From a virus, in the IMG/VR virus record IMGVR_UViG_3300045931_000290, positions 1-28,735 of that record: 28,735 nt of DNA. One strand, 5' to 3'. The notes below the pieces were generated by a model. It saw only the letters and a list, made by a program, of their open reading frames with translations, made no database searches and was not told where the DNA came from. A program made the translations under genes and the position numbers. This document shows, piece after piece, positions 3,284 to 27,320 of the stretch (the stretch's first letter is position 1; the number at the start of each line of letters is the position of its first letter).

Positions 3284-4414
3284 ATGAGCGAGTCGATCAT
3301 TCCGGACAGTGGCGAATACGCCGACCTGGTGGCCGTCGCCGGCCGCGTCTATCTCGCGACGGAAGTCGCGGCGCGCGATGCCGTGGCGGTCTACGCCGAC
3401 ACGTACGGGAGCCAGCTCCTGGCGCTCCTGCCGGGGGCGTTTGCCGGCGACCGCGTGTACGCGCTCTATCCGCGCATGGCCGTGAACCTGGATGGGCAAC
3501 TCGCCGTGGTCTACCAGCGCGGGCCGGCGCTCGCGCTCTGCCTGATCGGCGTGACCGAGATCGTGCGGCCGACGAGCGAGGTGCCCTTCGGCACCGAGAT
3601 GACGTGCGTCGCGTGGGTCGGTGACCGCTGGCAGTGGTCGTCGGTCGTGCAGTTGGGACCAGGCGGCCCGATCAAACTGGTGACGCATTTGTACGCGCGG
3701 GACGGCGCGTACATCGGGTCGTCGGCGGTCGATGCGGACACGACGCAGGGCATCTCGCGCATCCTGCCCTCGGGCGACGTCATCACGATTGACGAGGACT
3801 TCCTCTGGCCGGCCTACCCGGCGATCTCGCGGCCGTACCAGAGCGGCGATCTCATTGTCGGCCAGAACAACCAAGGGCCGGCGCGGTGCCTCGGGTACCG
3901 CAACGGCTTGCCCGATCCGACCTATCGCCTCTTCGACGGGTTGGCGTTCCGACCGCGCGCGGCAGAACCGACGCCTGGTCAGTGGACCGTGATTGCCGGC
4001 GGCCAGGGCGGGATTCGCGTCACCGACGTGCCGCCGTTCGTGCTCGACGTCGTCGAACCGCCCATCGAGCCGCCCGTTGAACCACCGATTGAGCCACCCA
4101 TCGAACCGCCGATTGAACCCCCAATTGAACCCCCGGAGCCTCCTATGCCTGGCAAACCCTACGACGAACAGTTCTACCTGAACACCGCCCCGCCGATGGT
4201 CGATGGCGAACCGGCCGGCGCCATGAATCAGGCCATCGCCGACTATCGGGTGATGGGGCGGGAACCGGACGCGCAATATGCGATCTGGGCGACCCGCACC
4301 GAGTTTGACTATCAGAATGCGGGGATGTCGCTCGCGGCCAGTTGGAAAAAGCACCGCAACGAGATGCGGCAACTGCTCAACCCGGCGGGCGACAAGCTGC
4401 CGCTTTTCCCGTAG
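3284..4414 (+). CDS. Tail-module protein with proline-glutamate hinge; possible first half of a frameshift fusion
   Basis: 376 residues. Residues 1-255 are beta-rich and unrecognised (for example RVYALYPRMAVNLDGQLAVVYQ). Residues about 258-287 are a tandem hinge of EPPIEPPVEPP units. Residues 288-376 are a separate small domain (PYDEQFYLNTAPPMVDG, then MNQAIADYRVMG, ending LPLFP). A stiff hinge between two domains fits a spike or an enzyme held away from the particle. The stop codon TAG follows directly on the heptamer TTTCCCG, and the next gene lies in the -1 frame with no good start of its own. The two may therefore make a single protein of about 717 residues. Confidence 0.65.
   Translation: MSESIIPDSGEYADLVAVAGRVYLATEVAARDAVAVYADTYGSQLLALLPGAFAGDRVYALYPRMAVNLDGQLAVVYQRGPALALCLIGVTEIVRPTSEVPFGTEMTCVAWVGDRWQWSSVVQLGPGGPIKLVTHLYARDGAYIGSSAVDADTTQGISRILPSGDVITIDEDFLWPAYPAISRPYQSGDLIVGQNNQGPARCLGYRNGLPDPTYRLFDGLAFRPRAAEPTPGQWTVIAGGQGGIRVTDVPPFVLDVVEPPIEPPVEPPIEPPIEPPIEPPIEPPEPPMPGKPYDEQFYLNTAPPMVDGEPAGAMNQAIADYRVMGREPDAQYAIWATRTEFDYQNAGMSLAASWKKHRNEMRQLLNPAGDKLPLFP
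4055..4143 (+). repeat. Twelve-base tandem repeat encoding EPPI hinge
   Basis: Units of the form GAACCGCCCATC recur about seven times with third-position drift, encoding EPPIEPPVEPP and similar. The repeat is in frame and forms the hinge of the gene around it. Such repeats can change copy number by slippage, which would alter hinge length. Confidence 0.7.
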
Positions 4415-5436
4415 GGGGCGGGGGACCCACCGGTCCCATCCCCGTCCCTGGCCGGGACCAACTCTTCGGATGCTGGGTGGCCGCGATGGGCAGCCAACAA
4501 CTCATCGCGCCGCATGCGGACGAGTTCTTCGATCGGATGCAGCAACTCGGCGTCAATGCGACCGAATTGTGGATGATGCCCTGGGTGGACGACGCGGGTC
4601 AGTTTGGGACGATCTCGCCGTGGCTCCCTCGGTCTGACGGGAAGTACGACCTCAGCATCGTCAACACTGCGTACTGGGATCAGACGTGCGCGACCATCGA
4701 CGCGGCGCATCGCCGAGGCATGGTTGTGCAGTTGTGCTTCTTCGACCTGTACTGCTGCTCGAAGGAAAAGCAGGGGATGCTCTGGGTCCCCGACCGGGAC
4801 CAGAACCCCGTGCGGAAGAACGTCAACGGCGTCAAATGGGGCGACCCCAACGACGACCAAGGGATCTATTTCCTGCTCCCCGATTGGGTATTGCAGGCGT
4901 TCATCGCGGAGACGTTCCGCCTCGTACCGGCCACGGGCATCTATGCGCGCACGGCGAACGAATCCCCCGAGAAGCCGATGCACCAGCGGATCTATGCGGA
5001 GATCAAAGCGCAGCGACCGGATTGCTTCACGATCTGCAACCGGCAGAACAACAACACGGGCCAGTACCGGAATATGGTCATCAACGGGGGCATGGACGGG
5101 ATCGAGTTCCACAACTTTGACCACGTCTCCTACATCGACGAGGTGATGCCGGGCGAAGTGCCCGACACCTACCCGGAAGCCTGGGCGGAAGCCGACCCAC
5201 GGCGCATCTTCATGTCCACAGATGGATGCCGGAACGGGAACACGACGGACGTGGGGCAATCCTACGAGTACAACGACATCCGAGACGTGCTCATCGACCA
5301 CTGGCGGCGCGGGTTCAACATCTCGCACCAGTCAGATCGGAAGATGATCCCGTTCATCGAAGGGGCCTTCCACTTCGAGCAGTGGGAGAACGAATTGCGG
5401 ATGCTTGACGAAATCCGTCAAGCCATTGGGAGGTAA
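4342..5436 (+). CDS. Glycoside-hydrolase-like (beta/alpha)8 barrel protein
   Basis: 364 residues if read from the TTG at 4342. That start overlaps the previous gene by 73 bases and has no clear ribosome binding site. The residues before about 38 look like out-of-frame sequence, and the domain proper begins at PGRDQLFGCWVAAMG. Strand/helix alternation resembles a barrel of glycosidase clan GH-A type: FFDRMQQLGVNATELWMMPW, then WDQTCATIDAAHRRGMVVQLCFFD. The motif TANESPEKP (Asn206-Glu207) matches the usual position of the acid/base Glu, and GIEFHNF (Glu255) is a candidate nucleophile. It may degrade a host surface polysaccharide. I cannot name the family. An internal ATG at 4486 is possible but would cut off the first strand. 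Confidence 0.6.
   Translation: MEKAPQRDAATAQPGGRQAAAFPVGGGGPTGPIPVPGRDQLFGCWVAAMGSQQLIAPHADEFFDRMQQLGVNATELWMMPWVDDAGQFGTISPWLPRSDGKYDLSIVNTAYWDQTCATIDAAHRRGMVVQLCFFDLYCCSKEKQGMLWVPDRDQNPVRKNVNGVKWGDPNDDQGIYFLLPDWVLQAFIAETFRLVPATGIYARTANESPEKPMHQRIYAEIKAQRPDCFTICNRQNNNTGQYRNMVINGGMDGIEFHNFDHVSYIDEVMPGEVPDTYPEAWAEADPRRIFMSTDGCRNGNTTDVGQSYEYNDIRDVLIDHWRRGFNISHQSDRKMIPFIEGAFHFEQWENELRMLDEIRQAIGR
4405..4437 (+). promoter_or_regulatory. Candidate programmed -1 frameshift site with downstream hairpin
   Basis: The zero-frame codons are CTT TTC CCG TAG. T-TTC-CCG (4405-4411) fits the canonical X-XXY-YYZ slippery pattern and touches the stop codon. Ten bases later a perfect 6-bp stem (GGGACC at 4422-4427, GGTCCC at 4432-4437) closes a 4-base loop. 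A -1 slip reads on as ...LPLFP-VGGGGPTGPIPVPGR into the barrel domain, a natural-looking linker. An indel in the assembly would give the same appearance. Confidence 0.45.
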
Positions 5437-11075: not shown

Positions 11076-12194
11076 GTGATCAAGGTCGATTCCGAATTCC
11101 GATCGTTGATTCCGCCGCTGACGCCGGACGAGCGCGCGCAGCTGGAGGCGAACGTGTGCCGGGATGGCTGCCGGGATCCGCTCGTGCTCTGGAAGGGGAT
11201 CCTGCTCGACGGTCACAACCGCTTCGAGATCTGCGCGGCGCACAAGATCAAGTACCGGGTCATCGATCAGGAGTGTGTCGATCGGGCCGACGCGAAGATC
11301 TGGATCATCCGCAATCAATTCGGCCGCCGGAACCTCACGCTCTTCGCCCGCGCCGAGCTCGCGCTCACGCTTGAGCCGCTCATCGCCGCGAGAGCAAAGG
11401 CAAAGCAACGGCTGTCTCGTGGCAGAGGTCGCCAAAAAGGTTTGACAGATTTGTCAAACCTTTCATCAACCAATACGAGAAGGGAGATCGCGAAGGCCGC
11501 CGGCATCTCCGAGGGCACGATCGATAAGGCGCGCGTGATTGCGGCGCGGGCGCCCGAGGCCGTCAAAGAGAAACTCCGGCGCGGTGAGACGACGATCGAC
11601 AAGGAACACAAGGCAATCGTCCAAACCGAGCGCAAGGCCGCGCAGATCGCCAAGATCGAAACGGCCGCGGCGTTGCCCGATGGCCTCTTCGACGTCATCG
11701 CCGCCGATCCGCCCTGGGCCTACGCCAAGCGTGCGGAGGATGCGACGCATCGCGGCGCCGCGCCGTACCCGTCGATGACGGTGGAGGAGATCGCGGCGCT
11801 GCCCGTGGGCGGGCGTGCGTCAGCCGATTGCATCCTCTGGCTCTGGACGACCAACGCCTTCATGGAGCAGGCGTATTCCGTGGCGCGCGCGTGGGGCTTT
11901 GAAGTCAAGACGATCCTCACATGGGTGAAGGATCGGATGGGTACGGGCGATTGGTTGCGCGGGCAAACCGAGCATTGCCTGATGGCCGTGCGCGGCCGTC
12001 CCGCGGTGAACCTGACGAATCAGACGACGTTCCTTCGGGGGCCTCTCCGCGAACACTCGCGGAAGCCAGACGAGTTCTTTGCACTTGTGGACGTGCTCTG
12101 CGTCGGCCGGAAGTGTGAGCTGTTTGCTCGCGAGCAACGACCTGGGTGGGCCGCATTCGGCGCGGAACTGGATCAGTTCGCTCGCACAGCATGA
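11076..12194 (+). CDS. ParB-like plus MT-A70 DNA adenine methyltransferase
   Basis: 372 residues from GTG. Residues about 10-62 are a ParB-like N-terminal domain (IPPLTPDERAQLEANV, then GILLDGHNRFEIC). Residues about 130-185 form a helix-turn-helix-like linker (TRREIAKAAGISEGTIDKAR). From about 200 comes an MT-A70 N6-adenine methyltransferase with the catalytic DPPW at 211-214, then CILWLWTTNAF and RKPDEFFALVD. It probably methylates phage DNA, protecting it from host restriction or marking it for replication. A 12-bp perfect inverted repeat lies in the linker-coding DNA. The stop overlaps the next ATG (ATGA). Confidence 0.85.
   Translation: MIKVDSEFRSLIPPLTPDERAQLEANVCRDGCRDPLVLWKGILLDGHNRFEICAAHKIKYRVIDQECVDRADAKIWIIRNQFGRRNLTLFARAELALTLEPLIAARAKAKQRLSRGRGRQKGLTDLSNLSSTNTRREIAKAAGISEGTIDKARVIAARAPEAVKEKLRRGETTIDKEHKAIVQTERKAAQIAKIETAAALPDGLFDVIAADPPWAYAKRAEDATHRGAAPYPSMTVEEIAALPVGGRASADCILWLWTTNAFMEQAYSVARAWGFEVKTILTWVKDRMGTGDWLRGQTEHCLMAVRGRPAVNLTNQTTFLRGPLREHSRKPDEFFALVDVLCVGRKCELFAREQRPGWAAFGAELDQFARTA
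11436..11463. repeat. Perfect 12-bp inverted repeat inside the methyltransferase gene
   Basis: AAAGGTTTGACA (11436-11447) and TGTCAAACCTTT (11452-11463) are exact reverse complements around GATT. The centre TTGACA-N4-TGTCAA is the same arrangement as the operator at 8822-8837. It may be a distant operator, or form an mRNA hairpin. It sits in a local patch of low GC. Confidence 0.7.
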
Positions 12195-12604
12195 CGCAGC
12201 GGCGCAACGACCCCGATCGGCTGAGCAACTACTTCGACCGCCTCCTATCGGGCATTGGTCATCGAGGCAGTTCTTTCTCGGACATTGATGCATGCACGCA
12301 TGACGGCGCGACAGATCGCTTTTTGTATCAGGAGTTCAAAAGACAGGCGGAGAAAATCAATCGTGGCCAGGCCGATCTATTGAAGGCGCTTGCGCGGCGG
12401 GACTACAACACGGTGTGGTGTGTCCGCCCCCGTGCTGATGCGGATCTTGATTGGTATAACGTGCGAACCAGGAAGCTCGAAGTGATTTCCGTCAAAGAGT
12501 ACCGCGAGCTGGTTCGACGATGGTGGCGCTCGGACGAGGGCGCTCCGCAAAATACATGGGAGTCCGCGCCCGTGACTCCTGACGTCACAGAGATCAACTG
12601 GTAA
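12191..12604 (+). CDS. Putative PD-(D/E)XK-type nuclease, foreign-looking composition
   Basis: 137 residues, coupled to the methyltransferase by ATGA. SFSDIDACTHDGATDRFLYQ followed by EFK gives Asp31/Asp33 and Glu48-x-Lys50, the D...ExK signature of PD-(D/E)XK nucleases. The second half (VRPRADADLDWYNVR, then LEVISVKEYRELVRRWW) is consistent with the end of a small alpha/beta fold. Its DNA is clearly less GC-rich than the neighbours, suggesting a later arrival. It may act with the methyltransferase as a paired modification or cleavage unit, which is speculative. Confidence 0.5.
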   Translation: MTQRRNDPDRLSNYFDRLLSGIGHRGSSFSDIDACTHDGATDRFLYQEFKRQAEKINRGQADLLKALARRDYNTVWCVRPRADADLDWYNVRTRKLEVISVKEYRELVRRWWRSDEGAPQNTWESAPVTPDVTEINW

Positions 12605-14408: not shown

Positions 14409-14587
14409 TGACCCCAGAGGCCTTGTATGCCACCGTCCAGGCGATGACGCGTTACGGCGGGTCCTTCGTCCGACAGCTCGCAGAGCTCGTGCGCCTGGCC
14501 GACGACGACAACCGCGCGCGCCTGCTTCAGGCGTTCCCCGAGTACTTCGAACGCTACCGACAACGCGCCGAGGCCGACACCGTATGA
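14408..14587 (+). CDS. Small helical early protein (59 residues)
   Basis: I chose the ATG at 14408 because it overlaps the exonuclease stop as TGATG; an in-frame ATG at 14402 is also possible. It reads MTPEALYATVQAMTRYGGSF, then VRQLAELVRLADDDNRARLL, then a short acidic/aromatic end (FPEYFERYR). Entirely helical, it resembles small proteins found beside recombination genes in many temperate phages. The function is unknown. Its stop overlaps the HNH gene start (ATGA). Confidence 0.55.
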   Translation: MTPEALYATVQAMTRYGGSFVRQLAELVRLADDDNRARLLQAFPEYFERYRQRAEADTV

Positions 14588-15093
14588 CACTCCGGCGTGA
14601 GGCACCAACCGCCGCCGTCAGAATCCGCGCGATGAAGCGGGATCGATTTCGCTGCACCTACTGCGGCGTTCCGGGAACAGATGCAGAGCTGGAAATAGAT
14701 CACATCATCGCGGTTTCAAATGGCGGCAGTCATCACATAAGTAATCTGACTACAGCGTGCAGAACGTGCAATCAGTTGAAAGGCTCCTCCGAAGGACAGC
14801 CACCAATCATACGTAATGGAACAGGGAAGCGCGGGTTAATTGGGATGTGTATTCACCGCCTCAAGGACGGTCGGATCAATAACCAGGGCCAAATTATCGC
14901 AGAAGACGGCGACATGGTTCTTGTTCAGCTCTACGAATGGTTCTGTGGAAGCCCAACTGTTGTCGTTCCTATCCCAAAGACGGTTATCTATTCGGAAGAG
15001 TGCCGAATTTACAGAGACCACGAATCAATGAACAGTGCGTACGAGATTGAGGCTAGAGGTCGTAACTCAGCTTTCGACCGGGGAGAACTATAG
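14584..15093 (+). CDS. Free-standing HNH endonuclease with extra C-terminal domain
   Basis: 169 residues. The HNH fold is residues about 15-60: RFRCTYCGVPG, then ELEIDHIIAVSNGGSHH, then NLTTACRTCNQLKG, with two CxxC pairs and the catalytic DH. Residues about 80-150 form a second small domain (GQIIAEDGDMVLVQLYEWFCG) of a kind I associate with phage proteins of unknown function. The gene is much less GC-rich than its neighbours and uses AT-ending codons, which marks it as an acquired, homing-type element. Its start has nonetheless become coupled to the upstream stop. Confidence 0.75.
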   Translation: MTLRREAPTAAVRIRAMKRDRFRCTYCGVPGTDAELEIDHIIAVSNGGSHHISNLTTACRTCNQLKGSSEGQPPIIRNGTGKRGLIGMCIHRLKDGRINNQGQIIAEDGDMVLVQLYEWFCGSPTVVVPIPKTVIYSEECRIYRDHESMNSAYEIEARGRNSAFDRGEL

Positions 15094-15774
15094 ATGCCCC
15101 CTGCAGCCGCCGCTGCGCCGCCCGTCGACACGCGCCCGATCGAGTCCGAGATCGCCCCGGCCCTCGCCGCCGCCCGCGGCCTCGCCGTCCTCGACCCCGC
15201 CTCCTACGCCCTCGCCGGCCAGGAGCTCGTCCGCCTCGCCACCGCCGAACGCCGCATCGCCGACTGGTTCCGCCCGCTCCGCGACGCCGCACACAAAGCC
15301 TGGAAAGTCCTCTGCGACCGCGAGCGCGAGGTCCTGACGCCCCTCACCCAGGAGATCGCCCGCCTCAAACGCGAGCGCGTCACCTGGAAGGCCGCCGACG
15401 ACCAGCGCCGCCGCGACGAGGAACGCCGCCTCGCCGACGCGGAGAAGCGGCGCGCGGAAGAGGCCGCGGCCGCCAAAGCCAAGCAGCTCGAGGACCGCGG
15501 CCAGGTCGCCCAGGCAGCGCAGGTCCTGGAGCGCGCGATCGCCGCGCCGCCGCCGGCCGTCGTCCTGCCCGACAGCACGCCGAAGGTCGCCGGCATCAGC
15601 GCGCGCAAGGTCTGGCGGTTCCGCGTCGTGGACGAGGCGCTCGTCCCGCGCGAGTACCTCAAAGTCGATGAGACGAAGGTCGGCGCCTACGTGCGCGCGA
15701 TGAAGAGCACCGGGGCGATTCCCGGGATCGAGATTTACAGCGAGGACGACGAGAGCGTCAGAAGGATCGGCTGA
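15094..15774 (+). CDS. Coiled-coil early phage protein
   Basis: 226 residues beginning right after the HNH stop. Residues about 60-150 are a long charged helix (IARLKRERVTWKAADDQRRRD, then AEKRRAEEAAAAKAKQLEDR) that should form a coiled coil. The C-terminal part (VWRFRVVDEALVPREYLKVD, then VRAMKSTGAIPGIEIYSEDD) is a conserved small domain common in temperate phages near recombination genes. A Gam-like or nuclease-associated role has been suggested for such genes by position only. I cannot assign a function. Confidence 0.6.
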   Translation: MPPAAAAAPPVDTRPIESEIAPALAAARGLAVLDPASYALAGQELVRLATAERRIADWFRPLRDAAHKAWKVLCDREREVLTPLTQEIARLKRERVTWKAADDQRRRDEERRLADAEKRRAEEAAAAKAKQLEDRGQVAQAAQVLERAIAAPPPAVVLPDSTPKVAGISARKVWRFRVVDEALVPREYLKVDETKVGAYVRAMKSTGAIPGIEIYSEDDESVRRIG

Positions 15775-15813
15775 ATCTGTCCGCGTTGGTCAGACCAATG
15801 GAGCCACAACGGA

Positions 15814-16869
15814 ATGTGGGTCAAACTCGACGACGCCTTTCCTGAGCATCGCAAGATCGAAGAGGCCGCGCGCGCCCTCGGCCGCTTCGGCGTCAGCCGC
15901 GCCATCGCCGTGTATGTCGAGGGCCTCTGCTACGCCGCGCGCAACCTGACCGACGGCTTCCTCTCCGCGCGCATCGTCGCCAAGCTCTACACCGACCCGG
16001 CGCCGCAGCAGGTCGCCCGCGCACTCGCCACCGTCGGCCTCTGGGAACCCGTCGAGGGCGGCTATCAGATCCACGACTACGGGCACTACAACCCCACGTC
16101 CCAGGAGGTCAAGGAGAAGCGGGAGTGGGACCGAAAACGGAAGTCCCTCTACAGCGACCCTGACCTCGTCGTCGCGATTCGCACGCGCGATCAGGACCGC
16201 TGCCGCTATTGCGGTGAGCGTGTGAACTGGACCGACCGTCGCGGCCCAGGCGGCGGGCAGTTCGATCACGTCGTGCCCAGAGGCGACAACTCGATGAGCA
16301 ACGTCGTCGTCGCCTGTCGCGGCTGCAACAACCGGAAGGGAGATCGGACACCCAAGCAAGCTCGGATGGTTCTTCTCGATGAGAACCAAGTCGGACCTAG
16401 TTCTGAGAGCCCAATAGGACCTAGTTCAGAACTAGTTCCCAAGAACCAAATAGGAACTAGTTCGGAACCAGTTCCCCCTCGCGGGGGCGCGCGGCGCGAT
16501 CGCGATCCCGTCCCGTCCCCAGATCCGGATCCGGATCCCAGCAGAGGTACTCCTCCCCCCAGTGTGTCTTCGTCGAACAGGCCGCCTGCGGCGGCAGACA
16601 CACGGCGCGGGGCGCTCTCGATCGGCTCACATAAAGCCCACGCGAGTTGCGGCCGGCCCTGCGTCCCGGCGTTCCTGCACGCCGAATTCCGGCAAAATCT
16701 CGGCGGCGATGAGGACGCCAACGACCGCGAGTTACGCGCGTGGTACGGGCGCGTCATGGACGAATGGCACGGGAAAACCATCCCGCTGGACGGCGTAAAG
16801 TTCTGGCGTCGGGCGTTTGAATCCTGGCAGAAAACCGAGGCAGAGGAGGCGATGTGGAAGGCCATGTAA
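15814..16869 (+). CDS. Phage replisome-organiser-like protein with internal HNH domain
   Basis: 351 residues. Residues 1-95 match the N-terminal winged-helix type of phage replication initiators (MWVKLDDAFPEHRKIEEAAR, then GLWEPVEGGYQIHDYGHYN). Residues about 120-175 are an HNH nuclease domain (RCRYCGERVNW, then GGQFDHVVPRGD, then VVACRGCNNRKG). A low-complexity linker with GPSSE/GTSSE repeats follows, encoded by iteron-like DNA, then a DP repeat and a C-terminal domain (ELRAWYGRVMDEWHG, then VKFWRRAFESW). It probably opens the phage origin and recruits helicase. The embedded HNH is unusual. It overlaps the next gene by 16 bases. Confidence 0.65.
   Translation: MWVKLDDAFPEHRKIEEAARALGRFGVSRAIAVYVEGLCYAARNLTDGFLSARIVAKLYTDPAPQQVARALATVGLWEPVEGGYQIHDYGHYNPTSQEVKEKREWDRKRKSLYSDPDLVVAIRTRDQDRCRYCGERVNWTDRRGPGGGQFDHVVPRGDNSMSNVVVACRGCNNRKGDRTPKQARMVLLDENQVGPSSESPIGPSSELVPKNQIGTSSEPVPPRGGARRDRDPVPSPDPDPDPSRGTPPPSVSSSNRPPAAADTRRGALSIGSHKAHASCGRPCVPAFLHAEFRQNLGGDEDANDRELRAWYGRVMDEWHGKTIPLDGVKFWRRAFESWQKTEAEEAMWKAM
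16394..16474. repeat. Iteron-like repeats, candidate phage replication origin
   Basis: Five 10-base units occur in 81 bases: GACCTAGTTC (16394, 16418), GAACTAGTTC (16429, 16454, both perfect palindromes) and GAACCAGTTC (16465). Unit starts are spaced 24, 11, 25 and 11 bases. Repeats inside the replication-initiator gene are the arrangement of the lambda origin in gene O. They are less GC-rich than the surroundings. Confidence 0.5.
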
Positions 16870-17363
16870 TCGCCGCCGCGCCCCCCCTGCCGGAGTGGTT
16901 CAAGACCACCCTCCGCGAATTTTTCCTGTGCTGGCGGCAGACCGTCACGGTCGAGATGGGCCGCGCGTACTGGGCCACCCTGAGCGACTGCGACCCGCAC
17001 GACGTCGCGGCCGCCGCCCTGGATCTCAGGCGCGGTGCGGGCGGCGAGTGGCCTCCGAGCGCGAGCACCTGGCACCAGGTTGCGGACCAGATCGGGCGCG
17101 ATCGTCGGCTGCGCGAGACCATCCAGCTGGGACGAGAACAGCACTGGCGCGCAGAGTGTCAGGACTGCGACGACACCGGCTGGCAGAGCCTGGAATGCAC
17201 CGCCACGGCCCGCTGTGGTCGACCCCGCTGTGACCAGGCCGAGGAAGCCTTCACGCATGGCTACGCGGCCGTGTGCCCCTGCCGTCCGACCAACAGCACG
17301 TATCAGCGTTCGCGTGACCGTGAGCGCACCAGCGCGCGACGCGAGAGGAGCCGCACCGCATGA
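16854..17363 (+). CDS. Replication-module zinc protein, possible helicase-loader analogue
   Basis: 169 residues. The N-terminal half (WFKTTLREFFLCWRQTVTVE, then HDVAAAALDLRRG, then EWPPSASTWHQVADQI) resembles the helical N-terminus seen in phage helicase-loading proteins. The second half is cysteine-rich: CQDCDDTGW, CTATARCGRPRCD and AVCPCRP, with nearby histidines, enough for two zinc sites. It overlaps the replisome-organiser gene by 16 bases, so the pair are likely produced together, as initiator and loader are in other phages. There is no P-loop, so it would not be a DnaC-type ATPase. The assignment rests partly on position. Confidence 0.45.
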   Translation: MEGHVIAAAPPLPEWFKTTLREFFLCWRQTVTVEMGRAYWATLSDCDPHDVAAAALDLRRGAGGEWPPSASTWHQVADQIGRDRRLRETIQLGREQHWRAECQDCDDTGWQSLECTATARCGRPRCDQAEEAFTHGYAAVCPCRPTNSTYQRSRDRERTSARRERSRTA

Positions 17364-18193
17364 CCACCAGGACGAGCAACCCCAACGGGAAGGACCGCGA
17401 CGCCGAGCGGCACGCGCGGCGCCGCAAGCCCCGCTCGCACACCGTGCCGCATCCGAAGGACCCCGCGCCCGTCGAGGATCCGCCCGTCGAGGCCGCGCCA
17501 ACCGTCATCACCCAGGCTGCCGAGATCCTCGAGCAAGAGCAGGCCACGGAGCCGCCGCCGGCGCTTCATCCCGGCGTCAACGAGGACGAACGCGAACGGC
17601 TCCGCGAGGCGCTGCGTCGCTGTGAGGCCGCCAACGCCGAGCTCGCGCGCGCCACCGATCGCCGCAAGCGCGCGCAGGCCGAGGTCGACGCCGCGAACAC
17701 GCGCCTGCAGACCCTCGTCGCCGAGATCAGCAGCGGCACCGGACAGCCGTCGCTGCCGTTCTCTGTCGCCGACCAGGAGGCCGACCGCAACGCGATGCTG
17801 CAGGCCGACCGCGAGGCGAACACGCCGGCGCTGATCGAGCGCCTAAAGCGCTTCGGCTGGATCCTCACGCGCGAGCAGCTTGACGCGCTGGCGCACGCGC
17901 AGCGTCACGAGCTCGCCGAGTATGTGAAGCGATCCGAGGCCGCGATCCTCGACGCGACGCAGCTCCACAACGTCGCGCTGCCGGCGGTCCTCGCGTCGAT
18001 GCACGTCGCCGACGACCCGCCGCCCGGCGAAGAGCGCCAGCACTGCACCCTGTGCGGGATGATGCTCCAGGCGCATCCGGTCGACTTCTGGGTGCCGGGT
18101 CTGCGCATCGGCAGCGACTGTCCCGGCGAGGACGTCAGCGGCGAGCGCGACACCGCGCTGGTCACCGCCGACGAGGAGCACGCCGCGTCATGA
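17360..18193 (+). CDS. Early protein with coiled coil and C-terminal zinc-binding motif
   Basis: 277 residues, coupled to the previous gene by ATGA. Residues 1-30 are very basic, 30-75 low-complexity, and about 75-125 a coiled coil (ERLREALRRCEAANAELARA). The rest is helical until HCTLCGMMLQAHPVDFWVPG and IGSDCPGED, which supply cysteines for a zinc site. I do not recognise the family. Placement between replication and resolvase genes suggests DNA metabolism. Confidence 0.5.
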   Translation: MTTRTSNPNGKDRDAERHARRRKPRSHTVPHPKDPAPVEDPPVEAAPTVITQAAEILEQEQATEPPPALHPGVNEDERERLREALRRCEAANAELARATDRRKRAQAEVDAANTRLQTLVAEISSGTGQPSLPFSVADQEADRNAMLQADREANTPALIERLKRFGWILTREQLDALAHAQRHELAEYVKRSEAAILDATQLHNVALPAVLASMHVADDPPPGEERQHCTLCGMMLQAHPVDFWVPGLRIGSDCPGEDVSGERDTALVTADEEHAAS

Positions 18194-18792
18194 CCCGCCT
18201 GCTCGCAATCGACCCGGGACCGACCGCGTCTGCGTATGTGCTCTACGTGCACGAACGCGACCCCATGACCCGCCGCAACGTGCTCGAGCGCCCTCTCCTC
18301 GAGCACGCCAAGGAGGCGAACGAGACCGTGCTGGCCAGGATCTACCGGGTCGCCGCAGAGAACCGCGGCGGGCGATGGGTCGACCAGGTTTGCATCGAGA
18401 AAATCGAATCGTTCGGGATGGCGGTCGGCGAAGACGTCTTTGAGACCGTCTTCTGGTCGGGCCGCTTCGCCGAGGCCTGGTGTTCGTACGACGCGGCCGG
18501 CGTGGCGCGTGTGCCACGCGGCGAGGTCAAGATGCACCTGTGTCGCTCGATGCGCGCGAAGGACCCCAACATCCGCGCCGCGCTGATCGATCGGTTCGGT
18601 CAGCCCGGCACCCGCAAGGCACCAGGCAGGGTCTACGGCGTCACGGGCGATGTCTGGTCCGCCCTGGCCGTCGCCGTCACCGTGGCCGAGGGCGGTCACG
18701 TCGAACGCGGGCTCAAGGTGCGACCGCCGAGACCGCCGAGGCTGCGTGAGGTCGATGCACTGGATGACCCGCGGGCGCCGTTGTTCCCATGA
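18190..18792 (+). CDS. RuvC-like Holliday-junction resolvase
   Basis: 200 residues from an ATG overlapping the previous stop (ATGA). The RNase H-like fold is shown by RLLAIDPGPTASAYVL (Asp8), VCIEKIESFGM (Glu70) and VYGVTGDVWSALAVAV (Asp154), the acidic residues spaced as in RuvC. It should cut four-way junctions and branches in replicated phage DNA before packaging. That fits its place between the recombination genes and the HNH/terminase genes. The C-terminus is an unusual proline-rich basic extension. Confidence 0.7.
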   Translation: MTRLLAIDPGPTASAYVLYVHERDPMTRRNVLERPLLEHAKEANETVLARIYRVAAENRGGRWVDQVCIEKIESFGMAVGEDVFETVFWSGRFAEAWCSYDAAGVARVPRGEVKMHLCRSMRAKDPNIRAALIDRFGQPGTRKAPGRVYGVTGDVWSALAVAVTVAEGGHVERGLKVRPPRPPRLREVDALDDPRAPLFP

Positions 18793-18810
18793 CTCCTGAA
18801 CTCTGACACC

Positions 18811-19218
18811 ATGCCGATCTGTCTGGAGCGCGGCTGCCCTCGCCTCGTCACACGCGGTCGCTGCCCCGCGCACGCCCAGGCCAAGGAGCGCACCCGAGGC
18901 ACCGCGCATCAGCGTGGCTTCACGTCACACTGGCACAACACATTCAAGCCACACTTCCGAAACCTCCTGCTCGAGCAGGACATCCCGCCCGTCTGTGGGG
19001 CGACGCTGCCGACCGGACCTCAGACGAGTGACAGCCGATGCAAGGCGGACGGTGTGCTGACGTTCGACTCGTTGCACCATGACCATGAGCCCCCGTTGAC
19101 ACCGCACGAGCGGCAGCATCGGGCCGCGGTCGAGGACCCGCAGCGTATCCAGTTGCTGTGCGCGGCGTGTCACGCGGCCAAGACGCGACGGCAGCACGGG
19201 GGGACCCCGGGGGGGTGA
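18811..19218 (+). CDS. HNH endonuclease of the packaging module
   Basis: 135 residues. The N-terminus has a small Cys/His cluster (CLERGCPRLVTRGRCPAH). The HNH core is FDSLHHDHEPPLTPHERQH followed by IQLLCAACHAAKTRR, with the catalytic H-D-H and a CxxC zinc pair. HNH proteins encoded directly beside terminase genes in HK97-like phages stimulate terminase cutting of the packaging site. Its position about 100 bases before TerS fits that role. Confidence 0.75.
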   Translation: MPICLERGCPRLVTRGRCPAHAQAKERTRGTAHQRGFTSHWHNTFKPHFRNLLLEQDIPPVCGATLPTGPQTSDSRCKADGVLTFDSLHHDHEPPLTPHERQHRAAVEDPQRIQLLCAACHAAKTRRQHGGTPGG

Positions 19219-21631: not shown

Positions 21632-23590
21632 TTGCGCCAACCTGCCACCGTGGCAGGCAGCGTGGATCGCGCCTATTCCCTTCTCGACATCAAAAGCATC
21701 GATGATGACGAGCGCATCATCGCCGGGATCGCCAGCTCGCCGCTGACCGATCGGGTCGGTGACGTGCTGGAGCCCACAGGGGCCGAGTTCCGTCTGCCGT
21801 TGCCCTTGCTCTGGCAGCACCGCGCCGACGAACCGATCGGCCAGGTGCTGGCCGCCAAGGTGTCCGCCAGCGGCATCGAGATTCGCGCGCAGATTGCGAA
21901 GAACGTCCTCCCGCGGATCGATGAAATCTGGGCGCTGATCAAGGCCCGCCTGGTGCGCGGCCTGAGCGTGGGGTTTCGTCCGACCGCGGACCCCGAACCC
22001 ATCAAGGGCACGAGCGGCCTGCGCTTTCCGGCGTGGGAATGGCTGGAGTTGTCGGCCGTCACGATTCCGGCGAACGCGGACGCCTCCATTCAAACCGTCA
22101 AGCAATGCGACACGTCGGCCGCCGCGCCTGGGGGCCGCCGCGTCGTCTCAGTTCTACCCGGCGCTCCGGGGTCACGAGGACACGGCAGTGCGATGAAACC
22201 CTACGCCGAACAAATCACGAGTTTCGAGCACACGCGGGCTGCGAAGGTCGCCGAGCGCGACAGCCTGCAGGAGAAGGCGTCCAGCGAAGGGCGCACCAAG
22301 GACGCGGCCGAGCGCGAGTCGTTCGAGACGCTGACGCAGGAGATCAAGGCCATCGACGACGAGCTCGTGGACCTGCGCGCGCTCGAGCAGACGAACCGGC
22401 AGATGGCGGCGCCGGTCACGGGTGGCACACCGGAGCAGGGCGCGGCCTCGCGCACGCCCGTCATCACCGTGAAGGACACGCTGCCGCCCGGCATCGAGTT
22501 CGCGCGGTACGTCATGTGCCTCGCGGCGGCCCGAGGCAACACGTCGCAGGCGGTCGAGATCGCCAAGGCCCGGTACCCCGACATGACGCGCATCGCCACC
22601 GTGCTGAAGTCGGCGGTCGCGGCGGGCACCACGACCGACCCGCAGTGGGCCGGGGCGCTCGTCGACTACACGAACTTCACCGGCGACTTCATCGAGTACC
22701 TGCGCCCGGCGACCATCATCGGCAAGTTCGGCACCAACGGGATTCCCGCGTTGCGGCCGGTGCCGTTCAACATCCGCATCATCGGTCAGACGAGCGGGGG
22801 TGAGGGGTACTGGGTGGGCCAGGGGCAGCCGAAGCCGCTCACGTCCTTCGACTTCGCGCCGACGCTGCTCACCTGGGCGAAGGTCGCCAATATCGCGGTC
22901 CTCAGTGACGAGCTCGTGCGGTTCTCGTCGCCGTCGGCCGAGGCCCTGGTGCGCGATGCGCTGCGCGGCGCCCTCGTGGCGCGGCTCGACATCGACTTCG
23001 TGAACCCGAACAAGGCCGCCGTGGCGAACGTGTCGCCGGCCTCGATCACCAACGGCATCTCGCCGATCGCCTCGTCGGGCACCGATGCGGCGGCGGTGCG
23101 CGCCGACATCGCAGCGATCTTCAGCACGTTCATCGCGGCCAATCTGACGCCGGCCAATGGCGTCTGGATCATGTCGGCCACGACGGCGCTGCAGCTCTCG
23201 CTGATGCGCAACGCGCTCGGCCAGAAGGAATTCCCCACCATCACGATGATGGGCGGGACCTTCGAAGGGCTGCCGGTGATCGTCTCCGAGCACGTCGCCG
23301 TGTCGGGCAGCCCGGACAATCACATCGTCATCCTGGTCAACGCGTCCGACATCTACCTGTCGGATGACGGCCAGGTGGTGATCGATGCCAGCCGGGAGGC
23401 GTCGCTGCAGATGGACGATGCGCCGACGAATGCGAGCGCGTCCGGATCGCCGCTGGCGCCGGTGCCCACGCAAGTCGTCTCGATGTTCCAAACCAACAGC
23501 GTCGCGCTGCGCGCCGAGCGCTACATCAACTGGGCGCGGCGGCGCGTCGAGGCGGTGGCGTATCTGGAAGGCGTGAACTGGGCGGCGTAG
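21632..23590 (+). CDS. Fused HK97 prohead protease and major capsid protein
   Basis: 652 residues from TTG (GTG at 21650 or 21662 is also possible). Residues about 13-155 are an S78-type prohead protease: RAYSLLDIKSIDDDERIIAG, LLWQHRADEPIGQV (His63), RLVRGLSVGFRP (Ser112) and WEWLELSAVTIPAN (acidic third member). Residues about 188-260 are a coiled-coil scaffold-like region (ERESFETLTQEIKAIDDELVD). Residues about 285-652 are an HK97-fold capsid protein (PPGIEFARYVMCLAAARGN, then ALRGALVARLDIDFVNP, ending RRRVEAVAYLEGVNWAA). The protease would cut itself and the scaffold away during head maturation. An internal ATG at 22193 could make the capsid part alone. Confidence 0.85.
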   Translation: MRQPATVAGSVDRAYSLLDIKSIDDDERIIAGIASSPLTDRVGDVLEPTGAEFRLPLPLLWQHRADEPIGQVLAAKVSASGIEIRAQIAKNVLPRIDEIWALIKARLVRGLSVGFRPTADPEPIKGTSGLRFPAWEWLELSAVTIPANADASIQTVKQCDTSAAAPGGRRVVSVLPGAPGSRGHGSAMKPYAEQITSFEHTRAAKVAERDSLQEKASSEGRTKDAAERESFETLTQEIKAIDDELVDLRALEQTNRQMAAPVTGGTPEQGAASRTPVITVKDTLPPGIEFARYVMCLAAARGNTSQAVEIAKARYPDMTRIATVLKSAVAAGTTTDPQWAGALVDYTNFTGDFIEYLRPATIIGKFGTNGIPALRPVPFNIRIIGQTSGGEGYWVGQGQPKPLTSFDFAPTLLTWAKVANIAVLSDELVRFSSPSAEALVRDALRGALVARLDIDFVNPNKAAVANVSPASITNGISPIASSGTDAAAVRADIAAIFSTFIAANLTPANGVWIMSATTALQLSLMRNALGQKEFPTITMMGGTFEGLPVIVSEHVAVSGSPDNHIVILVNASDIYLSDDGQVVIDASREASLQMDDAPTNASASGSPLAPVPTQVVSMFQTNSVALRAERYINWARRRVEAVAYLEGVNWAA

Positions 23591-23605
23591 GTCGCCCGTT
23601 TGACG

Positions 23606-23650
23606 GGACGCGGGGCCTCGTGGTGTCGAGGCGCCGCGTCCTGGTTTTCG
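23606..23650 (+). terminator. Strong stem-loop after the capsid gene, terminator-like
   Basis: Bases 23606-23620 pair with 23627-23641: 15 positions with one G-G mismatch, and a 6-base loop. CTGGTTTTCGG follows, so the T-run is short. It may end part of the transcription after the capsid gene or stabilise its mRNA. Confidence 0.5.
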
Positions 23651-23659
23651 GTCCTGCCC

Positions 23660-23872
23660 ATGATTCAGCTCGTGCCCATGTCCGTCCGCGTCGCGTTCGA
23701 ATTCCACGGGCGCGCCCTGCGCCCAGGCGATCGGATCGAGGCCGGTCCCGTCGAAGCGCTCGCCCTCAAATATGCCGGCAAGGCCGACTACGTCGAGCCG
23801 GCGTCCGCGGCGCCGTCGCCTCCGCGATCGAAGCGGCGTTATCGCCGGCGCGATCTGCAGGCGGAGGGCTGA
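23660..23872 (+). CDS. Small head-module protein (70 residues)
   Basis: I chose the ATG at 23660 because upstream starts in the frame would run through the stem-loop. It reads MIQLVPMSVRVAFEFHGRAL, then PGDRIEAGPVEALALKYAGK, then a short acidic turn and a very basic tail (RSKRRYRRRD). The middle resembles small phage proteins that form a beta-hairpin next to portal genes, but I cannot name it. The stop overlaps the portal start as TGATG. Confidence 0.5.
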   Translation: MIQLVPMSVRVAFEFHGRALRPGDRIEAGPVEALALKYAGKADYVEPASAAPSPPRSKRRYRRRDLQAEG

Positions 23873-25254
23873 TGCAGCTCTTCGGCCTGACCATCCAGCG
23901 CACGAAGGCGGTGCCGTCGCTCTCGCCGGTGCCGACGACGACGTCCGGGAGCTGGATGGGCGGCTGGTTTCCGGTCGTGCGGGAAGCGTGGCCGGGCGCC
24001 TGGCAGGACAACGTCGAGGTGCGCCTGGCGAACGTGCTCACGCACCCGACCGTGTTCGCGTGTATCAGCCTCATCGCGTCGGACATCGCGAAGATGCGCC
24101 TGCGGCTCGTCGAACTGGACCGCGATGGGATCTGGACGGAGACCGACTCGCCGGCCTACTCGCCGGTGCTGCGCAAGCCCAATCACTTCCAGACGCGGAT
24201 CCAATTCTTCAAGGGCTGGCTGACCTCGAAGCTCGTCTACGGCAACACCTACGTGCTGAAGGAGCGCAACGAGCGCACGAACGTGTCGGCGCTCTACGTG
24301 CTCGACCCGACCCGCGTGCGGGTGCTCGTCGCGCCCAATGGCGAGGTCTACTACGAGCTGATTCGGGATGATCTGGCGCTGCTGCCGGAGCAGCGGACCG
24401 CGCCGGCCAGCGAGATCATCCACGACACGATGCACGCGCTGTATCACCCGCTCTGCGGCCTGTCGCCGATCCACGCGTGCGGTCTGGCCGCGACGCTCGG
24501 CCTCAAGATTCAGACCGACTCGGCGTTGTTCTTTGAGAACAACTCGACACCGGGCGGCATCCTGACCGCCCCTGGCGCCATCAGCCAGGAGGTGGCGGAC
24601 CGCATCAAGGAAACCTGGGAAACGAACTACGGCACGGACAACCGCGGCCGCACGGCGGTGCTCGGTGACGGGCTCAAGTTCGAACCGATGACCTTCAAGG
24701 CGCAGGAGTCGCAGGTCGTCGAGCAGTGGCAGAAGACGGCCGAAGCGGTGGCCGCGGCCTATCACGTGCCGGCCTACCTGGTCGGTGCGGCGCCGCCGCC
24801 GGCCTACAACAACATCGAGGCGCTCACCCAGGCGTATTACTCGCAGTGTCTGCAGGAGCTGATCGAGTCGATCGAGCTGCTCCTGGATGAAGGCCTGGGC
24901 CTGACGGCCGGCAAGATCGAAGGGCGCACGCTCGGGACCGAGTTCGACCTCGACGATCTCCTCCGGATGGACAGCGCCACGATGGTCACGACGCTGGCGG
25001 CGGGCGTGGGCGCCGGCATTGCCGCGCCAAACGAAGCCCGCAAGCGCGTGAATCAGAAGCCCGTCGAGGGCGGCGACACGCCGTATCTCCAGCAGCAGTA
25101 CTGGCCGATCCGGCAGTTGGCGGAACGGGACATTCCGGTGCCGCCGACGTCGCCGGCGCCAGCGCCCGCTCCGGATGAGGGCGACGACGGCGACGAGGCG
25201 AAATTCGCCACCGCCCTCTGGACGAAAGTCGCAGCGCTCGACTATGCACCGTGA
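23872..25254 (+). CDS. Portal protein (HK97-like)
   Basis: 460 residues. Typical portal signatures are present: [20 protein letters not shown] near residue 55, [19 protein letters not shown], then [20 protein letters not shown], and [20 protein letters not shown] with [20 protein letters not shown] in the crown/stem region. The last 30 residues are proline- and acid-rich. It forms the ring at the head vertex through which DNA passes and to which terminase and connector bind. It lies after the capsid gene, whereas portal usually precedes protease and capsid in this group. Confidence 0.85.
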
Positions 25255-25981
25255 TCCTGAAGCTCGAGCGGAACTGATCGTCGCGGCGATTCGCGCCGCG
25301 GTCGCGCCGCTGCTCGTCCGCATTGCGGCGCTCGAAGCCAAGGTCGCGCTCGGGCCGCGGGATGGCCGCGACGGGATGCCTGGACCGAAGGGCGACCCGG
25401 GCGACCGTGGGCCGAAGGGCGACCCCGGGGACGCTGGGCCCGCCGGCGGCGCCGGCGAGCGGGGGCCGGCTGGTCCCCCCGGTGACCCGGGTCTCCCTGG
25501 TGAGGCGGGGGCGCCTGGTGCGCCGGGCCCGCCAGGGTCGGAGGGACCCGCGGGGCCGGCGGGCCCCCACGGTGACGCCGGCGCCCCGGGGCGAGACGGA
25601 CTCGACGGCACAGACGGGGCGCCCGGGCTGAACGGCTCGCTCGAGGGCATCGAGCTCCGACAGGCCGAGGACTTCCGGACGGTGCAGTGTGTCTTCAAGG
25701 CGACCGGCGAGTTGGTGCCCGGCGGTACGCTGACCTTCCCGGTGGTGCTCGATCGCGGCGTCTACAAGACCGGCCAGACATATCAGGCCGGCGACGGCGT
25801 GACGTGGGCCGGGTCGTTCTGGATCGCCCAGCGGGAGACGAGCGAGAAGCCCGGCGAGGGGCCCACCGGGTGGCGCCTGGCCGTCAAGGCGGGCCGCGAA
25901 GGTAAGCAGGGGATCAAGGGCGATCCGGGGGACCGCGGGCCGAAAGGCGACCAGGGGCCGCAGGGGAGGTCGGGCTATTGA
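25244..25981 (+). CDS. Collagen-like protein with C-terminal carbohydrate-binding-like module
   Basis: 245 residues, overlapping the portal gene by 11 bases. Residues about 5-38 are a helical, possibly trimerising, segment ([20 protein letters not shown]). Residues about 43-132 are Gly-X-Y repeats ([20 protein letters not shown] and on), interrupted once near GGAGERG. Residues about 133-215 form a beta domain whose [25 protein letters not shown] and GWRL pattern is like small chitin- or sugar-binding modules. A second short collagen run ends the protein. Virion fibres of this kind decorate heads or tails and may bind the host surface or glycans. Confidence 0.75.
25371..25637 (+). repeat. Collagen Gly-X-Y repeat tract
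   Basis: About 30 consecutive nine-base units encode Gly-X-Y triplets, rich in [15 protein letters not shown] and GAPG. Charged KGD and DRG triplets would help a triple helix form without hydroxyproline. A shorter tract encodes [19 protein letters not shown] near 25900-25975. Confidence 0.8.
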
Positions 25982-26640
25982 TGACCGTCGCGCAGGCTCG
26001 TCGGCGGAATGCGCAGCGTCCTCCGATGCCGGTGGTGGTCGTCCCCAGGTTGTGCCCGGGTGGCACGGTGGTCTGTCTCGCGTCAGGGCCGAGTCTGACC
26101 GAGGACGATGCTCGGTTCTGTGAGGGTCGAGCGACGGTGATTGCCGTGAACGATGCGTATCGCTACGCCCCCTTCGCCGCCGCCTTGATGGCGAGCGACA
26201 CCGAGTGGTGGCGCGTGCATCACGGCGTGCCGTCGTTCACCGGGCTGAAGTATTGCCTCTCGCGGTCGGCCGTGGGCAAGTGGCCGGATGTGCACGTCCT
26301 GCGCAGCACGGGCGCGGCCGGGATTGAAACCGACCCCACGGGCCTGAAGACGGGCTGCAACTCCGGCGCGGCGGCGGTCAACCTGGCCGTGCACTTCGGC
26401 GCCGCGCGCATCCTGCTGCTCGGCTACGACATGGGGGTGTCGCGCGCCGGCATGCCGGAGCATTTCTTCGGGAATCATCCGCGGCCGTTGCGCGGCGGAT
26501 CGCCCTACCGGCTGTTTCGCGAGCAGTTCGGCCAGATGGTCGCGCCGCTGAAGGCCGCCGGCGTGGCCGTCATCAACTGCACGCGCCGCACGGCGCTCGA
26601 GCACTTCCCCTGTCAGCCGCTCCGGGAGGCCCTGGCATGA
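25981..26640 (+). CDS. DUF115/MptE-like Rossmann-fold protein, glycosylation-related (copy 1)
   Basis: 219 residues, ATG overlapping the previous stop (TGATG). It begins with a nucleotide-binding-like loop (VVCLASGPSLTEDDARFCEG), then VIAVNDAYRYAPFAAALMAS, and has the diagnostic NSGAAAVNLAVHFGAARILL-LGYDMG block near residue 125-150. The family includes motility-accessory (Maf-like) glycosyl transfer proteins and pterin kinases. In phages it is usually found among glycosyltransferase genes. The most likely role is sugar transfer to a virion or host surface polymer. A paralogue lies at 27317. Confidence 0.6.
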   Translation: MTVAQARRRNAQRPPMPVVVVPRLCPGGTVVCLASGPSLTEDDARFCEGRATVIAVNDAYRYAPFAAALMASDTEWWRVHHGVPSFTGLKYCLSRSAVGKWPDVHVLRSTGAAGIETDPTGLKTGCNSGAAAVNLAVHFGAARILLLGYDMGVSRAGMPEHFFGNHPRPLRGGSPYRLFREQFGQMVAPLKAAGVAVINCTRRTALEHFPCQPLREALA

Positions 26641-27320
26641 CCCAGTGGCCGACCGTCCTCAGCGAGATGGACACGCTCGACCTGGTCCTCAGCGGGCGGA
26701 GCCTGGCGCGCTACGGCGATGGCGAGCTGCATCTGTGCGATGGGGTGCCTGCCAAGGCGCAGGAGGCCGATCCGGCGCTCCGTGGGCGCCTGAGAGGCAT
26801 TCTGCGATCGTCGGGGCACTGCCTCGTCGGCCTCCCGAATCTGCGCGCCCAGACGCCCAAGGCGGCCTTCTGGCAGCCATTCGCGCGGCATGTCGGCCTG
26901 CTCAAGGAGCGGGAGTACGCCAGCGCGTTCGTCACGCGTCCCGATTCCGCGCCCTGGATTGACACGCCGACCTATTGGGGCACGCTCGCACAGCTCTGGC
27001 TCGGGCAGGACGTGTTGCTCGTGCGCGGGGGCGCGCGGTCGTTCACCGCCGGGGACCTCTGCGGCGCGGCGCGCGTCACCGAGGTGGTCGGGCCGGCCGT
27101 CAACGCGTGGCGGTCGTATCGGGATCTGTTCACCCAGGTCATGGCGCATCGGCCGACGCGCGCGCTGCTGTGCCTAGGTCCGACGGCGACGGTGATGGCC
27201 GTCGACCTGTGCGCCCACGGGGTGCAGGCGATCGACCTCGGGCACCTCGGCCTCTTCTGGAAGAAGCATCTGAAGGGGGAGCCGATGATCGTGACCGAGC
27301 GCGACAAGGCGGTCGCATGA
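26637..27320 (+). CDS. GT-D-fold (DUF1792-like) glycosyltransferase
   Basis: 227 residues, ATGA overlap with the gene before. LARYGDGELHLC (residues about 23-34) matches the RFGDGE motif in which D and E bind metal and the sugar nucleotide in GT-D enzymes. LLCLGPTATVMAVDLCAHG and AIDLGHLGLFWKKHLKGE near the C-terminus fit the conserved second half (usual G-x-D-x-G-H). It probably adds a hexose onto an existing glycan. It is flanked by two related DUF115-like genes, suggesting stepwise building of one glycan. Confidence 0.65.
   Translation: MTQWPTVLSEMDTLDLVLSGRSLARYGDGELHLCDGVPAKAQEADPALRGRLRGILRSSGHCLVGLPNLRAQTPKAAFWQPFARHVGLLKEREYASAFVTRPDSAPWIDTPTYWGTLAQLWLGQDVLLVRGGARSFTAGDLCGAARVTEVVGPAVNAWRSYRDLFTQVMAHRPTRALLCLGPTATVMAVDLCAHGVQAIDLGHLGLFWKKHLKGEPMIVTERDKAVA

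Follow-up and report, generated by a model that had tools for sequence, protein, structure and literature searches.

Can a ribosome that has reached the end of a phage tail-module gene slip back by one base and add an enzyme to the protein it has just made? The question is raised by two consecutive reading frames, ORF A and ORF B, in IMG/VR record IMGVR_UViG_3300045931_000290, whose entire 28,735 bases were analysed and are referred to here as the window; the two ORFs and the elements of their junction lie on its plus strand. The same virus is represented by another record, G001 (3300045952_000116), whose 43,284 bases contain the whole window, base for base, in circularly permuted order and carry at both ends a 127-base repeat, the same stretch as window 12141-12267. 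On the basis of this terminal repeat the genome appears to be closed, with a length of about 43.16 kb, and the window would be a permuted part of it. Terminase, major head protein and portal were found, as in a tailed phage. In G001 (tape measure at 22538-27109, slip site at 35422) and in the related phage G002, a tape-measure gene lies some kilobases upstream of ORF A, and this position suggests that ORF A encodes a tail-module protein, which may be a virion fibre.

ORF A (3284..4414) encodes a frame-0 product of 376 amino acids and ends with CTT TTC CCG TAG. The heptamer T TTC CCG (4405..4411) has the X_XXZ_ZZN form in frame-0 phase, with TTC and CCG able to re-pair as TTT and CCC, and is directly adjoined by the frame-0 stop TAG (4412..4414). 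ORF B (4411..5436) occupies the -1 frame and comprises 341 amino acids plus stop, starting with a Gly/Pro linker that leads into a predicted TIM-barrel, glycoside-hydrolase-like domain. The original prediction had located the heptamer at the end of the 376-residue frame, touching its stop, had assigned the hydrolase to the -1 frame and had described a fused product of 717 residues joined by a Gly/Pro linker; each of these statements was confirmed.

By itself the heptamer is not unusual: the window contains four matches on both strands compared to 3.35 expected by shuffling. We compared the junction across phages, scanning 2.9 million viral contigs with the exact pattern TTTCCCGNNGGGGGCGGGGG. 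Matches were obtained in four stretches (G001, G002, G003 and L006); the pattern occurred once in each of four phage records, and neither the other strand nor a reversed control gave any match. L006 has neither the two-ORF layout nor the hairpin and was discarded as an unrelated chance match to the strict pattern. G002 (locus L003), which was found via its hydrolase, 79% identical to that of the window, and G003 (locus L005), whose enzyme is 38% identical, come from other IMG datasets than the window. In both, the heptamer closes a long frame-0 ORF and leads into a -1 ORF of some 344-365 codons; the stop adjoins the heptamer in G003 and follows a few sense codons later in G002. The comparison rests on three independent phages (window/G001, G002 and G003), among which there is no in-frame fusion of the two ORFs. 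When viral contigs were scanned again by protein and by pattern, a fourth phage was not found; phage records, GTDB genome contigs and the PDB (by sequence) yielded no relative of ORF A or ORF B, nor did Pfam or PHROGs at a meaningful score. A relaxed pattern returned 17 other stretches, all of them without the combination of a long frame-0 ORF that ends at the site, a long -1 ORF following it and a related protein. As a separate observation, the viral contigs L014, L020, L021, L022, L028 and L029 contain TTTTCCC followed by GGGGGAGGAGGGCC and would be read in the -1 frame as a comparable Gly/Pro stretch, without the two-ORF layout.

Around the junction, similarity between the phages sets in abruptly. 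Of the 60 bases before the heptamer, 24 match the window in G002 and 19 in G003, and from the first T of the heptamer onwards 25/30 and 23/30 bases do so; in both comparisons the blastn similarity near the junction begins exactly at 4405. The preceding protein is variable in its composition. The N-terminal domain of ORF A is 61% identical in G002 and differs from that of both phages in G003, while a middle domain of about 200 amino acids in the hinge region, together with the small C-terminal domain, is common to G002 and G003, the middle domain being absent from ORF A of the window. In these three genomes, then, the joint persists while the parts on both sides of it differ.

Directly downstream, comparison and folding identified a GC-rich hairpin of 14 bp with a 4-nt loop and a 4-nt bulge (4414..4449), the proposed frameshift stimulator, whose arms pair approximately 4414-4427 with 4432-4435 and 4440-4449. 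The original prediction had noted a 6-bp stem-loop starting 10 bases after the heptamer; this stem, GGGACC/GGTCCC at 4422-4427/4432-4437, is indeed present, but its size was understated, the structure common to the phages having 14 bp and beginning two bases past the heptamer. The hairpin can form in all three phages with every stem pair kept in each (100% of cells paired), so that the conservation of slippery site and stem-loop, which had been proposed as a check, was found in two further phages. Invariant across the three are 7/7 columns of the heptamer and 26/28 of the stem, against 2/11 of loop and bulge (stem versus loop and bulge, Fisher p = 1e-5) and 19/31 of the downstream coding sequence. 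Both stem changes are one-sided and retain pairing (A-U to G-U and G-U to G-C), and there is no double-sided covariation, for which three sequences are too few to give much. G003 carries one extra codon in the loop, by which the hairpin is lengthened by two pairs and not broken. What exceeds chance is the conserved combination and not the heptamer alone.

In folding energy the hairpin reaches -25 to -28 kcal/mol for 40 nt, within the top 0.3% or better of 40-nt stretches in each record; relative to shuffles that keep the very GC-rich composition, the bare hairpin attains z-scores of -1.5, -2.3 and -2.9 in the three phages, and with z-scores of -0.6 to -1.5 the window hairpin, taken alone, does not stand out from sequences shuffled from its own bases. 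In one folding window with longer flanks, the window sequence slightly favours a structure in which the 6-bp upper stem is accompanied by outer pairs and another hairpin. A spacer of 2 nt to the full hairpin is shorter than usual and counts against frameshifting; with this spacing the lower stem would need to be melted by the ribosome, which would place the upper stem at the usual distance. Part of the sequence conservation, moreover, is accounted for by the constrained glycine-rich linker.

ORF A is composed of an N-terminal domain, a Pro/Glu-rich hinge and a small C-terminal domain, with the proline-rich hinge (EPPIEPPVEPPIEPPIEPPIEPPIEPPEPP) encoded at 4052..4144. It matches no Pfam or PHROGs family, and the fold model of its N-terminal domain was unusable (pLDDT 38). 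For ORF B, an AlphaFold2 model based on three sequences showed alternating strands and helices at low confidence (mean pLDDT 54, pTM 0.66). The best PDB matches by Foldseek were GH140 apiosidase, GH5 mannosidases, mannanases and endoglucanases at probability 1.00, with E-values down to 6.7e-6, TM-scores of 0.3-0.5 and about 11-18% identity, all obtained with the pLDDT 54 model. No Pfam family passed its own cut-off for ORF B; Apiosidase (PF13204) scored 14.7 bits, below the cut-off of 26.5, and this sub-threshold match agrees with the Foldseek ranking. The modelled ORF B is likely a glycoside-hydrolase-type TIM barrel, clan GH-A-like, that resembles GH140 and GH5 enzymes, and the earlier description as hydrolase-like gains support from the fold comparison, subject to the low confidence of the model.

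How might the enzyme frame be expressed if not by slippage? An ordinary downstream gene, with its own start or reinitiated past the stop of ORF A, would need no frameshift, and -1 frame starts do exist ahead of the heptamer: GTG in G002 and ATG in G003 at the same place, 36 nt upstream, and in the window only a TTG 63 nt upstream. These starts include none that is common to the three phages and none with a clear Shine-Dalgarno sequence, and the coincidence of the G002/G003 pair arises because Glu-Trp is conserved in frame 0. Past the site, the first starts of the window and G002 fall inside the conserved domain, while G003 has none for 219 nt. The -1 ORF, which extends for about 341-365 codons past the slip, has no conserved start, and in the window a convincing one had already been missed by the original prediction's author. 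The substitution phases likewise switch at the site. In the 300 bases upstream of it, G002 and G003 differ at 45 frame-0 third positions compared to 23 and 21 at the others (97 each), tracking frame 0 and not ORF B, and within the enzymes of the window and G002 (300-900) the -1 frame third positions carry 75 substitutions compared to 28 and 26 (of 199). As such a gene would also leave the invariant heptamer and stem unexplained, we regard it as improbable. A false indel splitting one gene through sequencing or assembly error is very unlikely, almost negligibly so: error-prone G-runs do adjoin the junction, but the bases over the locus are identical in G001, the second record of the same virus, and two diverged phages have the same frame relation. 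Readthrough of the stop codon was rejected, frame 0 past the TAG not being the conserved frame, and transcriptional slippage is unlikely as the site lacks a long homopolymer.

That both flanks are exchanged or diverged around a conserved island could also mean that the DNA serves as a recombination joint for the exchange of tail and enzyme modules, its conservation reflecting this exchange and the linker protein rather than frameshifting. Such a joint would explain neither why constancy is specific to the stem while loop and bulge vary nor why an in-frame fusion is absent from all three phages, and it is highly improbable as the full account. A more serious, though still rather unlikely, alternative combines slippage with internal initiation. 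A possible internal start, consisting of GGAG, a 6-nt spacer and ATG at 4145 (4135..4147), stands where the small C-terminal domain begins, and equivalents are found in G002 (GGAGG, 8 nt, GTG; L003 5704-5719) and G003 (AGGAG, 3 nt, ATG; L005 6987-7003). In all three phages the start and its Shine-Dalgarno-like sequence occur at the same place, in frame, past the proline-rich hinge and 81-89 codons ahead of the slip. The main enzyme product might then be a small-domain-enzyme protein of about 430 amino acids, separate from the long tail protein, although both this product and the long fusion may be made. Against this stand the composition of the Pro/Glu-rich hinge, whose CCG GAG GAA codons yield GGAGG by themselves, the continuity of the ORF with its upstream domains in all three phages, and the small number of sequences, three, from which the pattern is drawn. 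We keep the internal start as a lead: if used, it would add two products, the small domain alone and the small domain with the enzyme, and part of the enzyme may not be attached to the full-length ORF A protein.

The best reading of the junction, and a highly probable one, is that of a programmed -1 ribosomal frameshift site. Such a site had been proposed from the window, and the proposal is backed by the conserved slip site and hairpin, the lack of a shared hydrolase start and the identical second record. According to this reading, most ribosomes would terminate at the TAG that adjoins the heptamer, releasing the 376-amino-acid tail-module protein. A fraction would be held by the GC-rich hairpin two bases downstream, tRNA-Phe and tRNA-Pro would re-pair one base back on TTT CCC, and the shifted ribosomes would run through the Gly/Pro linker into the putative TIM-barrel domain to complete the 717-amino-acid protein. 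The enzyme-bearing form would be a minority tail subunit by which a domain that cleaves carbohydrates would be positioned at the tip of the tail or on a fibre, so that the enzyme would be carried in controlled proportion on the tail protein. The analysis itself shows the sequence, its conservation, the switch of reading frame and a predicted hairpin; we infer that slippage occurs, its rate, that the ORF A product belongs to the virion, that the enzyme is active, and its substrate. In Escherichia coli, 61 of the 64 X_XXZ_ZZN motifs shift above threshold when combined with a strong stimulator (PMC4066793), and T TTC CCG is not one of the three exceptions. All-pyrimidine X/Z combinations are favoured, whereas CCN codons shift less well on average than UUN or AAN codons (PMC4066793). 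If the host behaves like E. coli, a low to moderate shift rate would be expected.

Extensions of phage virion proteins by slippage are known. In T3, A2, A118 and T7 (10B), among others, C-terminal extensions, often Ig-like, are derived in this way (PMC5009743), and the present locus resembles them in that slippage would bypass a stop near the end of the gene to give a minority of copies an extra C-terminal domain. It differs from them in its extension, which is modelled not as an Ig-like domain but as a TIM-barrel enzyme, in its carrier, a tail-module protein encoded downstream of the tape measure, and in the retention of the slip-hairpin joint while identity between the enzymes has dropped to 38% and the preceding domains differ. 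With the lambda chaperones gpG/gpGT it would share a -1 frameshift in the tail module that gives a short and a long product. The genes of lambda-type chaperones, however, precede the tape-measure gene, and their products are not part of the virion, whereas here the pair lies well downstream, not immediately upstream, of that gene and the extension is hydrolase-like. A carbohydrate-active-type domain on a tail-module protein is also reminiscent of fibres and spikes with glycoside hydrolase or depolymerase domains. In phage fibres and spikes a single reading frame usually covers the enzyme too, which puts it on every copy, whereas here only frameshifted copies would have it. In the literature that we covered, largely outside subscription journals, we found no report in which a frameshift appends an enzyme to a tail protein. 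Whereas slippage extensions of virion proteins are already known, an enzyme as the extension, attached through a slip site that is conserved while the parts it connects can be exchanged, looks new.

It is conceivable, although we give it somewhat less than an even chance, that the slip-hairpin joint is portable and couples interchangeable enzymes to interchangeable tail proteins in a constant minority proportion, leaving most fibres bare and a few enzyme-tipped. If so, slippage would set the number of enzyme-bearing tail proteins per particle, which would be a way of balancing the binding against the digestion of surface sugars, and the recoding signal would be a joint that is conserved while the domains around it are swapped. 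Together with a used internal start, one locus would yield up to four products. The case bears on the question of whether frameshift extensions in phages are products of chance recombination or of selection for stoichiometry.

Two further features of the genome were observed. A window ORF of 692 amino acids (864-2942), a tail-module protein without an assigned family, contains imperfect internal repeats (1248-1984, 74-78% identity), which are also seen in G002 (about 17.9-18.6 kb and 28-29 kb) and in G003. Matches to HNH endonuclease families occur within window 14584-19218, in the ORFs 14584-15093, 15814-16869 and 18811-19218, the second of which includes a replication-initiator-like part.
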